From Roseateles sp. (GTDB taxonomy: Bacteria > Pseudomonadota > Gammaproteobacteria > Burkholderiales > Burkholderiaceae): 64,000 bases of DNA. The number at the start of each line of letters is the position of its first letter. Position 1 is the stretch's first letter. The stretch spans positions 1 through 64,000 of the forward strand of contig JAFAMW010000028.1 of assembly GCA_019232985.1 (NCBI GenBank), read 5' to 3'. The translations under genes were made by a program, and so were the position numbers. Positions 7,108 through 14,873 of this stretch are shown one piece after another. The notes under the pieces are model-generated. The model was not told the origin of the DNA. It did not search any database and saw only the letters and a program-made list of their open reading frames with translations.

Positions 7108-8814
7108 ATGCATCTCGACATCGCCGCAGGACTGGCGAGCGCGGCCGGACCGCGCGCCATCAACGAGGACTACGCCGCCGTGCAGCGCCCCGCGCCGGCG
7201 GACGCCGCGACGCGCGGCTGGATCGCCGCGCTCGCCGACGGCGTGTCGGGCCCAGAACCCGGGGCCGGCGAGGGCCGCATGGCCGCGCAGAGCACCGTGC
7301 GCGCGCTGCTGCGCGACTACTACGCGGTGCCCGCGAGCTGGGACACGAGCGCCGCGCTCGAGCGCCTGATCGGCGCGCAGAACCAATGGCTCGCCGCGCA
7401 CAACCGGCGTTGCGCCGCGGCCGCCCTGACGACGCTGAGCTGCGTCGTGCTGCGCGGCCAGAGCTTCGTGCTCGGCCATGTCGGCGACAGCCGCATCTGG
7501 CTGCTGCGCGACGGCGCCTGCCTGCAGCTGACCGAAGACCACGCGCTGCCGCAGCGCGACTTCGCGCGCGTCACGCGCGCCGTGGGCCTCGACGCGGCCG
7601 TGCACGTCGACTTCCGGCACGGCGAGCTGCGCGTCGGCGACCGCCTGCTGCTCACGAGCGACGGCGTGCACGGCGTGCTCGGCGCGGCCAAGCTCGGCGC
7701 GTTGCTCGGCGCGCACGACGACGCCCAGGCCGCGGCCGACGCGATCGTCGCGGCCGCGCTCGCCGCCGGCACGCGCGACAACGCGAGCGCGCTCGTGCTC
7801 CAGGTGCGCGGCCTCGCGGCGCTGGGCTTCGACGACGTGCGCGGCGCGGCCGAGCGCCTGCCCGTCCCGCAGCGGCTGCGCGTCGGCGCGCGGATCGACG
7901 CGTTCACCGTCACGGCGCTCGTCGCCGACAACGGCGTGCACCGGCTGTGCCAGGCGCGCGACGCCGACGGCCGCCTCGTCGCGCTCAAGATGCTTTGCGA
8001 GGCGCGCGCGAACGACGCCGAGGAGCGCGCGATGCTCGCCCACGAGGGCTGGCTCGGCCAGCGCTTCGCGGGCCTCGCGGGCTTTGTCGCGGTGCGGCCG
8101 GTGGCCGAGCCGAGCGCGTTCTACCTGTGCTTCGACTGGCACGCGGGGCGCACGCTCGAGCAGCTGATCGCGGCGCGCGAGCGGCCCGCGCTCGACGACT
8201 TCGTCGCCGCCGCGCGCGCGCTCGGCCACGCGCTCGGCCGCCTGCACCGCGCGGGCGTGGTCCACCGCGACGTCAAGCCCGCGAACCTGCACCGCGGCGA
8301 CGACGGCGAATGGCGGCTGCTGGACCTCGGCGTCGCGCTGTCCGAGCGCTCGCCGGCCGCCGCGCGCGAGCTCCACGCGGGCACGCCCAGCTATATGAAC
8401 CCCGAGCAATGGGACGACCCGCCGCGCCCCGCCGACGCGGGCAGCGACCTGTTCGCGCTCGGCGCGAGCCTGTACCGGTGGCTGACCGGCCACCTGCCCT
8501 ACGGCGAGGTCGCGCCCTACCAGCGCGGCCGCTACCGGCGCGACCCCAAGCCGCCGTCGCGCTTCGACGCGCGCGTGCCGGCCTGGCTCGACCGCGTCCT
8601 GCTCAAGGCCGTCGCGCTCGACCCCGCACAGCGCTTCGAGACGGCCGAAGAGTTCGCGCTCGCGCTCGAACGTGGCGCCGCGCGCGCGCTGCCCGAGCTC
8701 GGCGCGACGCCGCTCGCGCGCCGCGACCCGCTCGCGCTGTGGCAGATCGGCCTCGGCGTCTCGCTGCTGCTCAACGCGCTGCTGATCGTCTGGCTGCTGT
8801 TCCTGCCGCGCTGA
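7108..8814 (+). CDS. bifunctional PP2C phosphatase/Ser-Thr protein kinase, membrane anchored
   Basis: 568 residues. Residues 1-240 form a PP2C phosphatase: RAINEDYAAV, ALADGVSG, HVGDSRIWLL, LLLTSDGVHG and a closing TRDNASAL supply the metal-binding Asp residues. Residues 255-520 form a Hanks-type kinase with VALK (Lys294), the catalytic loop VVHRDVKPAN (Asp388), DLG in place of DFG, and GTPSYMNPEQW; the glycine loop is degenerate. A transmembrane segment ends the protein (WQIGLGVSLLLNALLIVWLL), so both enzymes face the cytoplasm. This fusion is often found beside nitrate assimilation genes in betaproteobacteria; its substrate is unknown. Here it lies on the strand opposite to narK and nirB and between them. 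Confidence 0.93.
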   Translation: MHLDIAAGLASAAGPRAINEDYAAVQRPAPADAATRGWIAALADGVSGPEPGAGEGRMAAQSTVRALLRDYYAVPASWDTSAALERLIGAQNQWLAAHNRRCAAAALTTLSCVVLRGQSFVLGHVGDSRIWLLRDGACLQLTEDHALPQRDFARVTRAVGLDAAVHVDFRHGELRVGDRLLLTSDGVHGVLGAAKLGALLGAHDDAQAAADAIVAAALAAGTRDNASALVLQVRGLAALGFDDVRGAAERLPVPQRLRVGARIDAFTVTALVADNGVHRLCQARDADGRLVALKMLCEARANDAEERAMLAHEGWLGQRFAGLAGFVAVRPVAEPSAFYLCFDWHAGRTLEQLIAARERPALDDFVAAARALGHALGRLHRAGVVHRDVKPANLHRGDDGEWRLLDLGVALSERSPAAARELHAGTPSYMNPEQWDDPPRPADAGSDLFALGASLYRWLTGHLPYGEVAPYQRGRYRRDPKPPSRFDARVPAWLDRVLLKAVALDPAQRFETAEEFALALERGAARALPELGATPLARRDPLALWQIGLGVSLLLNALLIVWLLFLPR

Positions 8815-8835: not shown

Positions 8836-10113
8836 TCAGACCCGCGTGCCGAGCGTGGGCGCGCGGTAGTCGACCTCGGCCTCGGCCGGCGTCGGACGCG
8901 CCCGCCCCCCTCGCTCCGCCCAAGTCCTGGTCCAGCGAATCTGCGCGACGCGCAACATGAACAGCATGGCGAGCGCGAGCAGCGCGAACGCGACGAAGCC
9001 CCACAGATAGCTGCCGCCGTACTGCCTGGACAGGCCCATCGCGTTCGGGATGAAGCCGCCGCCGAGCGCGCCGACCTCGCCGATCATCGAACCCGCGACG
9101 GCCGTCGCGAGCGGCCAGCGCAGCGGCACGAGCTGGAACAGCGCGCCGTTGCCCGCGCCGAGCGCGGCGAAGCACAGCATGAACAGCAGCGTCGTCGCGA
9201 CGAGCGAGCCGCCCGACAGCCCGCACAGCAGCAGCGACACGGCGACGAGCGCGAGCACGGCCGTCAGCGTCGTCACGCCGCCGACGCGGTCCGAGATATG
9301 GCCGCCGACCGCGCGGATCACCGAGCCCATCAGCGCCGCGAGCATGGTCAGCTGGCCGGCCTGGACCTTGGTGACGTGGAACTGGTCGTAGAAATAGCTG
9401 GGCAGGAAGCTCGACAGGCCGACGAAGCCGCCGAAGGTCACGACGTAGATCAGGCTGAACGCCCAGCCGTCCTTCTCCCACAGGCAGGACAGGTGCTCGC
9501 GCAGCGACTGGTGCTCTCGGTCCGGCGGCTCCTTCGCGCAGAACCACATCACGGCCATCGGCAGCAGCATGGTCGCGGCGGCGACGCCGTAGACGGCCTG
9601 CCAGCCGTAGGCCGTCGCGAGCGGCGGCGCGAACAGCACGGCGAGCACGGTGCCGGAGTTGCCGGCGCCCGCGATGCCCATCGCGAGGCCCTTGTAGCGC
9701 GGCGGGTACCAGCCCGAGCCGAGGCTCAGCGCGACGCCGAAGCTCGCGCCGGCGATGCCGAGCAGCACGCCCATCGCGAGCACGCGGTCGTAGCTGTCGA
9801 CGCAGAAGTAACCGAACAGCAGGGCGGCGACGATCAGCGCCATCTCGACCATCGCCGCGCTCTTGCGGCCGATGTACTGCGACAGCACGCCGAGCGGGAA
9901 GCGCATCAGCGCGCCCGCGAGGATGGGCACCGAGATCATGAAGCCCTTGTGGGCTGCGTCGAGCGCAAAGCTCTCGCCGATGAACGGCGCCATCGCGCCG
10001 TTGAGCACCCAGACCGCGAAGCTGAAGTCGAAGTACAGGAACGCGGCGAGCAGGGTCGGCCAATGGCCGGCCTGGGCGAACGCGCGGAACGGGCGGGAAG
10101 CAAGGGGAACCAT
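8836..10113 (-). CDS. narK: nitrate/nitrite transporter, major facilitator family
   Basis: 425 residues with about 12 hydrophobic segments. It belongs to the NarK/NasA-type nitrate-nitrite porters of the inner membrane. Family features include the RFPLGVLSQYIGRKSAAM loop after the second helix and the glycine-rich nitrate signature in GLAMGIAGAGNSGT, with a related LGAGNGALFQ in the second half. GGAGG lies 7 bases before the ATG. It is the first gene of the minus-strand nitrate set. The leader upstream holds a sigma-54 promoter, a hexaloop hairpin and an attenuator-like hairpin. No terminator is visible between its stop and the converging kinase gene. Confidence 0.95.
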   Translation of the reverse strand: MVPLASRPFRAFAQAGHWPTLLAAFLYFDFSFAVWVLNGAMAPFIGESFALDAAHKGFMISVPILAGALMRFPLGVLSQYIGRKSAAMVEMALIVAALLFGYFCVDSYDRVLAMGVLLGIAGASFGVALSLGSGWYPPRYKGLAMGIAGAGNSGTVLAVLFAPPLATAYGWQAVYGVAAATMLLPMAVMWFCAKEPPDREHQSLREHLSCLWEKDGWAFSLIYVVTFGGFVGLSSFLPSYFYDQFHVTKVQAGQLTMLAALMGSVIRAVGGHISDRVGGVTTLTAVLALVAVSLLLCGLSGGSLVATTLLFMLCFAALGAGNGALFQLVPLRWPLATAVAGSMIGEVGALGGGFIPNAMGLSRQYGGSYLWGFVAFALLALAMLFMLRVAQIRWTRTWAERGGRARPTPAEAEVDYRAPTLGTRV

Positions 10114-10125
10114 GTGCGAGCCTCC

Positions 10126-10169
10126 AAAAGCAGATGGCCATGTCGAGCACCGGGCTCGGCATGGCCATC
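10126..10169 (-). terminator. attenuator-like hairpin in the narK leader
   Basis: On the minus strand, 10-bp perfect arms (10160-10169 and 10133-10142) continue after one mismatch into 5 more pairs (10054-free inner arms 10154-10158 and 10144-10148) around a 5-base loop. TGC and then four T residues (10129-10126) follow. The narK ribosome site GGAGG starts at the next base. A strong stem plus a short T run immediately before the first gene is what an antiterminator-controlled leader would have. The T run is short, so termination efficiency is uncertain. Confidence 0.7.
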
Positions 10170-10193
10170 GAGAACGAACTGAAATGGTGGGCT

Positions 10194-10213
10194 GCAGCGC
10201 GCCTTTGCGCCAC
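10194..10213 (-). promoter_or_regulatory. ANTAR-type hexaloop hairpin (P1) in the narK leader
   Basis: On the minus strand the arms GCGC (10210-10207) and GCGC (10200-10197) enclose the hexaloop AAAGGC, and three more pairs extend the stem to 10213/10194. ANTAR proteins recognise hexaloops with A at position 1 and G at position 4, and this loop has both. It lies right at the predicted transcript start and upstream of the terminator-like hairpin. The second hexaloop hairpin that ANTAR targets normally have was not found with confidence. Confidence 0.6.
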
Positions 10214-10223
10214 GGCCCGATCC

Positions 10224-10240
10224 TTGCAAGCAGCGTGCCA
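10224..10240 (-). promoter_or_regulatory. sigma-54 (-24/-12) promoter of narK
   Basis: Read on the minus strand the sequence is TGGCACG, 4 bases, then TTGCA, a full match to the sigma-54 consensus with the GG and GC in correct spacing. It predicts a transcript start near 10214, so the leader to the narK ATG is about 100 nt. Sigma-54 control means activation by an NtrC-type enhancer protein when nitrogen is short. Confidence 0.85.
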
Positions 10241-10252
10241 GGAGGGGCGCCG

Positions 10253-11512
10253 ATGGCGGCGTCCCCGCTCAGCCGCTCTATGAAGTCCGCCTCCGCCGCC
10301 CCGCCCGCCGCCCCGCCCGTGCTGCTGCTCGCCGCGCCCGAAATCCCGGCGCCGGTGCTGCGCCGCACCATCATCGACCGCTGTTCATGCGACGACTTGG
10401 TGCAGCGCGCGGCGCGCGCGCCCGACGCAGCGCTGCTGCTGATCGCGACGGCCGAGGCGCTACCCGCCTGGCTGGCCGCGCTCGACGCGCTGGTCGGCCG
10501 CGCCATGCTCGCCCTCGTGCCCGGCGCCGACGCGGCCGCGCTCGACCGGCTCGCCGCGCTCGGCGCGCATTGGCTCGACCGGGCCCCGGCCGACTGGGAC
10601 GCCGCGCTCGGCTGGGCCGCGCGCGTGCACGCCCGCGAGGCCGGCTGGCGCGAGCGCCTCGACGAGCGCCGCTGGACCGAGCGCGCCAAGGGCGTGCTGA
10701 TGCTCGCCCAGGGCCTGGGCGAGGACGCCGCGCACCGGCTGCTGCGCGAGACCGCGATGCACGCGCGCCTCAAGCTCGCCGAGCTCGCGCGCGGCGTCGT
10801 CGCGGCGGCCGAGGGCGCCGAGGCCGTGAACCTCGCGGGCCAGCAGCGCTTTCTGTCGCAGCGCCTCGTCAAGCTGGTCGCGCAGCGCGCGGCCGCGATC
10901 GAGCCGCGCCGCGCGAAGACGCTGCAGGACGCGTCGGCCGCGCGCATCGACGCCAACCTCGCGCGGCTCGCCGAGCTTGCGCCCGCGGGCAGCGCGGCCG
11001 GTCTCGCCGCGGTCCGCGCGGCCTGGCAGGCGCTGCAGCCGCTGCTCGCGGGCAAACCGACGGCCGAGGTGCTCAAGCGCGCCGACGCGGCCGCCGAGAC
11101 CCTGCTCGAGCGCTCCGAGGCGCTCGCGCGCGCCGTCGAGGCCGGCGGCGCGCACCGCAGCCTCGCGCTGGTGAATCTATGCGGCCGCCAGCGCATGCTG
11201 AGCCAGCGCCTCGCCAAGCAGGCGCTGCTCGCCGACCTGCTGCCCGGCGAGGTCGCCGTCGACGCGGCGCTGTTCGCGGCCTGCGAGGCCGGGCTCGCGA
11301 GCCTCGAGGCCGCGCCGCTCACGAGCGACGCGATCCGCGCGCTCCAGGCCGAGGTGCGCGCCGAATGGCTGCACCTCGTGCGCAGCCTGCGCGACGCCCA
11401 TGGCCGCGAGGCCGCGGCCGGGCTCGCGCGCAGCAGCGAGGCGCTGCTCGATCAGCTCGACCGCCTGACCGCGCTGTACCAGCAAAGCCTGCAGCTCGTG
11501 CTCGGCCACTGA
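10253..11512 (+). CDS. ANTAR-domain nitrate-responsive antiterminator with two PilJ-like sensor halves
   Basis: 419 residues. Residues 1-120 resemble a degenerate receiver, residues about 125-180 form the ANTAR RNA-binding domain (RRWTERAKGVLMLAQGLGE, then helices), and two type IV pili methyl-accepting (PilJ) segments follow, beginning NLAGQQRFLSQRL at residue 193 and NLCGRQRMLSQRL at residue 308. PilJ segments are related to the nitrate-sensing P-box type domains. The protein has no transmembrane segment, so it would sense in the cytoplasm. It is likely the functional counterpart of NasR/NasT, binding the narK leader and preventing termination when nitrate is present. GGAGG lies 7 bases before the chosen ATG. 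It is divergent from narK across a shared control region of 139 bases. Confidence 0.9.
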   Translation: MAASPLSRSMKSASAAPPAAPPVLLLAAPEIPAPVLRRTIIDRCSCDDLVQRAARAPDAALLLIATAEALPAWLAALDALVGRAMLALVPGADAAALDRLAALGAHWLDRAPADWDAALGWAARVHAREAGWRERLDERRWTERAKGVLMLAQGLGEDAAHRLLRETAMHARLKLAELARGVVAAAEGAEAVNLAGQQRFLSQRLVKLVAQRAAAIEPRRAKTLQDASAARIDANLARLAELAPAGSAAGLAAVRAAWQALQPLLAGKPTAEVLKRADAAAETLLERSEALARAVEAGGAHRSLALVNLCGRQRMLSQRLAKQALLADLLPGEVAVDAALFAACEAGLASLEAAPLTSDAIRALQAEVRAEWLHLVRSLRDAHGREAAAGLARSSEALLDQLDRLTALYQQSLQLVLGH

Positions 11513-11587: not shown

Positions 11588-12439
11588 ATGCAGGGTGGAT
11601 CGCTGCGACGGTGGCTGGCGCTGCTGACGCTTTGCAGCGTCGCGGCGTGGCCCGGCATGCCGGCGCAGGCGTCACAAACGGCCCGCGCCCGCGCCGCGTC
11701 CGCCCCGGCGGCGGCCCCGACCGCGAGCGCGCCGACCATCACCCTGCACCTCGCGCGCAACGGCAACGCGGTCGTCCAGGTCGTCGCGGGCAAGCTGCTG
11801 CGCGAGCTCTACGCACGCCTCGGCGTCGCGATCGAGATCGAGCCGCTGCCGGGCAAACGCGCGACGCTGATGGTCATGGCCGCCGACGGCCGGCTCGACG
11901 GCGAGGTCGCGCGCGTGTCCGCCTACGCCGACGCGAACCCGTCGCTGATCCGCGTCGACCCGCCCTATTACAGCCTAAGCTCGAGCGTGTTCGTGCGGCG
12001 CGGCTTCGCGACCCCCATCCGCCGCGCCGAGGATCTCGCGGGCCTGCGCGTCGGCGTGTTCGGCGGTGCGACCCACGCCGAGCTCGCCGCCAAGCATGCG
12101 CTGAGCGTTGTCGAACTCGCGTCCTTCGAGCAGCTGTACAAGATGCTCGCGGCCGGCCGCGTCGACGTCGTCATCGACGCCGGCATCAACGGCGACGCCG
12201 AACTCCGCCGGCTCGGCCTCGACGCGCTGATCGAGCACCAGGGCGACCTCGCGCGGCTCGACCTCCATGCCATCCTCGTCGCGCGCCACGCGGCGCTCGC
12301 GCAAAGCCTCGGCGCCGAGATCCGCGCGCTGCGCGCCTCGGGCGAGCTGCAGGCACTGACCGCGCGCTACGAGCGCGAGACGCTCGCCGCCTGGGCCCAG
12401 GCGCCGCCACCACCGTCGGCGAGCGCGCCGTCGCGCTGA
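11588..12439 (+). CDS. periplasmic solute-binding protein, family 3
   Basis: 283 residues. A Sec signal peptide (WLALLTLCSVAAWPGMPAQA) precedes a low-complexity Ala/Pro linker and then a bacterial extracellular solute-binding domain of the amino-acid type, with motifs IEIEPLPGKRATLMVMAADG, LAGLRVGVFGGATHAEL and MLAAGRVDVVIDAG. It lies 75 bases after the ANTAR gene on the same strand and is probably cotranscribed. No permease or ATPase is next to it, so it may act as a sensor or partner protein rather than a transport component. Its ligand is unknown. Confidence 0.85.
   Translation: MQGGSLRRWLALLTLCSVAAWPGMPAQASQTARARAASAPAAAPTASAPTITLHLARNGNAVVQVVAGKLLRELYARLGVAIEIEPLPGKRATLMVMAADGRLDGEVARVSAYADANPSLIRVDPPYYSLSSSVFVRRGFATPIRRAEDLAGLRVGVFGGATHAELAAKHALSVVELASFEQLYKMLAAGRVDVVIDAGINGDAELRRLGLDALIEHQGDLARLDLHAILVARHAALAQSLGAEIRALRASGELQALTARYERETLAAWAQAPPPPSASAPSR

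Positions 12440-12554: not shown

Positions 12555-14869
<2,315 letters not shown>

Positions 14870-14873
<4 letters not shown>

Follow-up and report, generated by a model that had tools for sequence, protein, structure and literature searches.

A conserved sigma-54 site and single-hexaloop leader between narK and the gene of a predicted nitrate-sensing ANTAR-PilJ antiterminator in Roseateles

Which control elements are packed between narK and the divergently encoded ANTAR-PilJ regulator of Roseateles sp., and how could they act together? The stretch that we analysed, hereafter the window, comprises 64,000 nucleotides (nt) of contig JAFAMW010000028.1 (GCA_019232985.1). Its control region (10114-10252) separates narK, on the minus strand, from the plus-strand gene of a protein that joins an ANTAR domain to PilJ domains. 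The minus strand reads, in order, a sigma-54 site, a hexaloop hairpin (P1), a 24-nt linker, a hairpin of 15 base pairs (bp), UGCUUUU, GGAGG and the narK ATG. These sequence features are real and conserved, which confirms a genuine composite control region. We propose that it probably forms a two-input switch for nitrate uptake, in which NtrC and sigma-54 would start transcription and the ANTAR-PilJ protein would act as an antiterminator through the lone P1. Judged from the sequence, the system is most likely a single-hexaloop relative of the NasR and NasT systems with a PilJ-based sensor; RNA binding, nitrate response and termination are predicted.

Relatives of the regulator were collected by scanning genome contigs (79 loci kept) and by searching 399 genomes sampled evenly from one bacterial family, 79 of which contained a match to this predicted family of nitrate-sensing antiterminators that combine ANTAR with PilJ repeats. 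The family search gave 80 places: 30 served as loci, 45 were fetched, four were already known from the contig scan and one was a fragment. Locus records were excluded if the regulator match ended before residue 230, and no regulator relative was confirmed on viral contigs. The first-pass annotation of this DNA had remarked that the presumed regulator is encoded next to the narK leader, and this arrangement proved general: among 120 locus records, which include the window and count a few genomes twice, 110 have the gene divergent from narK (82) or nirB (28). Of the other 10, five reach a contig end within 800 bases, four contain neither narK nor nirB in the stretch, and in one, L037, the regulator and narK point the same way. 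The L037 contig is labelled Pantoea; its best likeness is to Burkholderiales loci, and the label may be wrong. From these loci we derived 106 distinct leaders.

The sigma-54 site matches the consensus without a mismatch and is the sole perfect match in the 64 kb (0.01 expected). Matches with up to two mismatches number 10 versus 9.4 expected, so that the perfect site alone stands out. Such a full-consensus minus-strand site had been proposed at 10224-10240; its upper end is right and its lower end is one base off. Across the distinct leaders, 97 of 106 carry a site with at most two mismatches, where dinucleotide shuffles lead us to expect 3.8. Both marks of an NtrC-type sigma-54 promoter, the -24/-12 consensus and an upstream activator dyad, are present. 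With the C of the GC set at -12, transcription is predicted to start near 10214, which would place P1 at the extreme 5' end of the RNA.

P1 (GTGGCGC-AAAGGC-GCGCTGC) has a 7-bp stem with two G-U pairs and a hexaloop with A at position 1 and G at position 4, closed by C:G. It is alike in all three respects to the hexaloops of EutV targets and of ANTAR RNAs in general, as described in PMC3369931 and PMC7496416. The 5'-terminal A1/G4 hairpin called at first pass is borne out by sequence, folding, comparison and covariation. A P1-type hairpin, defined by a purine at loop position 1, G at position 4 and a stem of at least 6 bp, begins 20-36 nt past the start of the sigma-54 site in 84 of 96 testable leaders (those with a sigma-54 site of at most three mismatches and at least 100 nt of leader), where 0.5 is expected. 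In 62 non-redundant leaders, 94.9% of the stem cells are paired and 85 cells are changed on both sides, versus 31.7 in shuffles and 4 to 35 in slid registers; these rows had been picked for carrying a hexaloop stem of 5 bp or more, which biases the percentage of paired cells and affects the covariation less. R1, a covariance model of P1 made from 62 of 64 non-redundant leaders, with the window held out, its relatives included and L103 omitted for length, gave the window's P1 its top score, 47 bits (E 1e-9), with 16.1 bits for the runner-up. Across 16 genomes the best match of R1 was the narK/nirB leader beside the ANTAR-PilJ gene in 14, 12 of them inside the training set, and an nrtA leader, outside that set, in two. 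For the 101-nt leader the folding energy is -43.4 kcal/mol (z -2.35; 4 of 200 shuffles equally low), which by itself is modest evidence; the strong evidence is comparative. Of the leaders with P1, 87 in number, 64 have A at loop position 1, whereas 23 (for example L018, L028, L043 and L131) depart from the A1 rule in having G there, 16 of them with a U-G pair closing the loop.

The regulator is set to start at 10280 because database copy P0001 has 410 amino acids. It comprises a pseudo-receiver, the ANTAR domain (about 10649-10801) and two PilJ four-helix bundles (about 10811-11509). Pfam reports ANTAR (62.2 bits) and PilJ matches only, and no NIT domain in the regulator. At the contact positions mapped by alignment, the ANTAR domain keeps its RNA-contact residues. 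Both GxxR nitrate motifs are kept in the tandem PilJ domains, and R182 and R297 are invariant in 25 of 25 aligned proteins, the window's included; both align to R61 of McpN and are predicted nitrate-binding arginines. The sensor had been described as PilJ-based instead of NIT-based, which holds by sequence, but the predicted fold of the sensor is closest to the NIT sensor of NasR, and the contrast is therefore more one of family than of design. A search of the open literature, with subscription papers outside its scope, yielded no paper pairing 'ANTAR domain' with 'PilJ domain'. None of the passages retrieved describes such a fusion or its leader, and in those from PMC7074706 'antar' occurs solely in a species name.

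Downstream of P1, the terminator-like hairpin (GATGGCCATG-c-CGAGC-CCGGT-GCTCG-a-CATGGCCATC) ends 7 nt ahead of the Shine-Dalgarno sequence. The first-pass annotation had a 15-bp stem with TTTT directly before GGAGG; the TTTT does immediately precede GGAGG, and three bases lie between it and the stem. In nine aligned relatives the tail reads GGCCUUUU. With loosened settings, a scan reports a GC-rich hairpin followed by a T-rich tail upstream of narK or nirB in 10 of the 13 leaders of the group to which the window belongs in the regulator tree, and in L025. Ten of these 11 copies were aligned (L085 was omitted for length), and 3 of 13 pairs in them show compensatory changes on both sides. P1 and this hairpin lie about 27 to 71 nt apart in eight leaders; four gave no value and L003 was excluded as a wrong match.

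Known ANTAR leaders carry two hexaloops, the second overlapping the terminator (PMC3369931). The window has the first A1/G4 hexaloop of such targets and lacks the second (P2), as enumeration finds no further hexaloop hairpin with a purine at position 1 and G at position 4 in its leader, even with a stem of 3 bp. Elsewhere P2 stands at the expected spacing in 24 of 86 leaders, its loop following the P1 loop by 44-45 nt in 19 of 25 counted. In preselected rows, 94% of the P2 stem cells pair and 3 pairs are changed on both sides; when the whole structure was tested, two of five measures did not rise above shuffles. In the regulator tree, all 24 P2 leaders fall in one group of 36 (100/100), of which 12 lack P2, and the window falls in a group of 13 (100/100) in which none has it. 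Inside the group of 36, a second hexaloop with at least 5 bp occurs in 26 leaders versus 2.8 expected, and in the 50 leaders outside it in 3 versus 2.4, which is no excess. A conserved second hexaloop in related narK leaders, which the first-pass annotation had suggested looking for, is therefore found in one group and not in the window's own.

This lack belongs to the ANTAR-PilJ leaders and not to the organisms, because in five genomes of the window's group the nrtA leaders all have both P1 and P2 (GGAC-AANGGC-GTCC). The six narK leaders of the same genomes have P1 only, bar a GTTGCG match in L189 that overlaps the gene start and looks like chance. These genomes offer a natural test of ANTAR antitermination: should a leader with one hexaloop prove functional, displacement of the terminator by P2, as the accepted model demands, would not be the whole story. 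In loci L185, L186, L187, L188 and L189, the surroundings of the ANTAR-PilJ gene (within about 12 kb) include a second ANTAR gene as well as an nrtA-type transporter gene whose leader has two hexaloops. Detected with the ANTAR-PilJ query (in 4 of 5 stretches) and with Pfam (G008 and others), the second ANTAR gene adjoins nrtA in four genomes and lies about 4.5 kb away in the fifth. In the one case read, the product has 211 amino acids and consists of a receiver-like portion and an ANTAR portion.

Within the P2 group, we tried the stretch between P1 and P2 as a spacer hairpin and rejected it: 29.6% of cells pair in the register tried, and RNAalifold prefers a GCAC/GTGC helix round P2. That helix (alignment A3, columns 37-40 with 77-80) encloses P2 and shows two-sided changes; in many rows of the group it is followed by a GTGCCTCC-like stretch.

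How does the locus compare with known systems? NasR/nasF of Klebsiella oxytoca is alike in combining Ntr control with a one-protein, nitrate-sensing ANTAR antiterminator (PMC5424462, PMC3369936). The domain order differs, with NIT then ANTAR in NasR and pseudo-receiver, ANTAR and two PilJ domains here, and nasF carries P1 and P2, whereas the window leader carries P1 only. The first-pass parallel with nasF is strongly supported by comparison for the predicted stacked logic, with promoter, P1 and upstream dyad all recurring across the leaders, and fails for the build. EutV differs likewise in requiring both hexaloops at short spacing. The NasS-NasT systems of Azotobacter, Pseudomonas and Paracoccus share ANTAR antitermination of nitrate assimilation, in Azotobacter with NtrBC too (PMC5424462). 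There the sensor NasS is a separate protein, whereas here the predicted nitrate sensor is fused to ANTAR. In one relative, a few kb from the ANTAR-PilJ gene, an nrtA gene whose leader has two hexaloops is preceded by a receiver-ANTAR gene laid out like NasT. No separate NasS sensor was found at the window locus. The gene following the regulator (11588-12439, plus strand) encodes a family-3 binding protein with an SBP_bac_3 match under the curated Pfam cut-off; it has no relative in the 79 loci (E <= 1e-8), and we rejected it as part of the system.

In the chain of events that we envisage, nitrogen shortage would cause NtrC and sigma-54 polymerase to start narK transcription. The ANTAR-PilJ protein would bind nitrate in its tandem PilJ domains and, in this form, seize the hexaloop of P1, right at the 5' terminus of the nascent transcript; with the protein on P1, polymerase would pass the terminator-like hairpin just before narK. 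We infer, then, that P1 is bound by the product of the neighbouring gene, that this binding prevents termination and that the signal is nitrate. As P2 is missing, P1 alone would have to serve the protein, with no remodelling of P2.

Several points weigh against this account. In EutV, both hexaloops are required in vivo and a linker longer by 20 nt abolishes antitermination (PMC8934654), and the window leader has one hexaloop. The window's U tract is broken (UGCUUUUGG), although a pair now replaces one internal mismatch of the hairpin. A simple terminator scan reports no terminator at the window leader; it misses the hairpin because the T tract is short, and the looser scan does detect it. Clear intrinsic terminators occur in 14 of 87 leaders (2.6 expected), 11 of them in the window's group plus L025; with only three elsewhere and 2.6 expected in all, the output step may differ among groups. 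The Foldseek E values are not significant (best 0.019). Finally, the second ANTAR protein, whose gene lies a few kb away in five relatives, could also bind P1.

How could a lone hexaloop suffice? Possibly, though we hold this tentatively, antitermination tolerates distance: the nitrate-bound protein, loaded on P1 as the RNA emerges from polymerase, might modify or ride the enzyme through a terminator lying some 27 to 71 nt farther on, with no remodelling at P2. If true, ANTAR regulation would have shifted in this lineage from RNA refolding to processive antitermination. It is unlikely, in our estimate, that a second site is present in disguise, namely an AWGGCC at the foot of the terminator arm that keeps A1 and G4 and would be contacted by the second ANTAR domain single-stranded or in a very weak hairpin. 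This motif opens the arm in 8 of the 10 rows of alignment A4, the window included, and 4 of the 5 nrtA leaders have a true P2 with the loop AAAGGC. Yet the window forms no flanking stem, and in relatives the U tract pairs with these A residues too, which accounts for them without a second site.

A translational switch, with the hairpin or a leader-bound protein governing ribosome access to narK and termination minor, would suit a window hairpin that nearly abuts GGAGG and has a poor U tract. It would also suit the leaders outside the window's group, most of which have no clear U-tract terminator, and in actinobacteria the ribosome binding site is often overlapped by an ANTAR RNA, which can repress translation (PMC8164766). 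The closest relatives, however, keep a canonical terminator some way upstream of the start codon, the hairpin shows compensatory changes and P1 sits about 80 nt from the narK start codon, and we regard this switch as quite improbable. That P1 has nothing to do with the neighbouring gene, being the target of the other ANTAR protein, encoded at the nrt locus, or serving as a mere mRNA-stabilising 5' hairpin, is very improbable: the R1 model does find P1 in nrtA leaders near the second ANTAR gene, but a stabiliser would not call for anything like the conservation seen at loop positions 1 and 4, and the ANTAR-PilJ gene keeps its divergent place beside the leader in P1-only and P1-P2 groups alike.

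Control by NtrC and sigma-54 followed by antitermination from P1, the reading that we prefer, may draw its first input from inside the regulator gene. A dyad of the form TGCACY-N5-RGTGCA, with at least 10 of 12 matches, occurs in 52 of 103 regions upstream of the sigma-54 site (5.8 expected), and three control regions gave 1, 6 and 0 versus 5.0, 6.2 and 4.8 expected, which is no excess. A spacer of 5 brings a good right half in 23 loci, other spacers in 0 to 6. Two controls were not clean: the reversed dyad gave 10 versus 6.2 expected in the same region and 21 versus 8.4 at 600-820 nt upstream, and among up to 60 permuted right-half words at spacer 5 (mean 1.3) one reached 24 loci. Since 40 of 51 sites lie in the frame encoding C/R-x-x-L/M-V of the regulator, protein conservation could mimic the dyad, and a mere echo of a conserved C-x-x-L-V peptide is a serious alternative. 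The peptide is found in 58 of 103 loci; in all 58 valine is encoded by GTG and the codon before it ends in TG. Elsewhere in the same reading frames GTG makes up 62% of valine codons, and CTC and CTT together 20% of leucine codons, a comparison that indicates constraint on the DNA. The codon test thus speaks against the echo, in genomes that are related and not independent. There are signs of an NtrC-like enhancer under synonymous constraint within the regulator coding sequence, likely an enhancer of the target gene written inside the gene of its regulator.

Two Rfam families bear on this architecture. The printed consensus of RF03032 ('narK RNA') and of RF00625 ('P11') contains sigma-54-like letters (GGCAC..UGC), an A1/G4 P1 hexaloop and a GAC-AAAGRC-GUC hairpin that we read as P2, with a terminator-like helix as well in P11. 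Both look like a sigma-54 promoter with a dual-hexaloop ANTAR leader, not like stand-alone RNAs, an observation made with L175, L176, L179 and L171. RF03032 has a match in 54 of 200 genomes; it matches the nrtA leaders of G017, G153 and G182 under its cut-off, at the places found by R1, and further sites elsewhere in the 54. The window leader has no gathering-level Rfam match, the lone RF03032 match at E <= 1 lying on the other strand (16.8 bits, E 0.5). Unlike the consensus of both families, the window leader is without a P2-like hairpin, and it stands outside them.

Table 1. Features of the narK control region and its flanking genes, in window coordinates
Feature	Coordinates	Strand	Basis and remarks
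narK, MFS nitrate/nitrite transporter	8836..10113	-	Pfam MFS_1; ATG = 10113-10111
narK Shine-Dalgarno GGAGG	10121..10125	-	Sequence
Short U tract UUUU	10126..10129	-	TTTT; three bases (TGC) after the stem
Terminator-like hairpin, loop CCGGT	10133..10169	-	15 bp and one mismatch
Linker from P1 to terminator-like hairpin, 24 nt	10170..10193	-	Enumeration: without a second purine-1/G4 hexaloop hairpin
P1, A1/G4 hexaloop hairpin, predicted ANTAR site	10194..10213	-	About +2 to +21; folding and comparison
Sigma-54 promoter, perfect consensus	10225..10240	-	TGGCACG-ctgc-TTGCA, 0 mismatches; predicted +1 near 10214
ANTAR-PilJ regulator, 410 amino acids	10280..11512	+	Pfam; database copy P0001; structure model
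NtrC-like dyad TGCACCAAGTCGTCGCA	10388..10404	-	10/12 matches; inside the ANTAR-PilJ coding sequence, centre about 182 nt before the predicted start

The genes behind narK on the minus strand have domains that fit nirB, nirD, an assimilatory nitrate reductase and a uroporphyrinogen methyltransferase, which points to a nitrate assimilation cluster. Beyond the binding-protein gene on the other side lies a molybdopterin oxidoreductase gene (12555-14873, plus strand), with no close relative in the 79 loci. A phosphatase-kinase fusion gene (7108-8814, plus strand) sits antisense between narK and nirB, so that a narK-nirB transcript would cross it antisense. Of 37 loci in which narK and the regulator diverge, 28 show the order narK, phosphatase-kinase gene, nirB, and in 3 more nirB is out of view.
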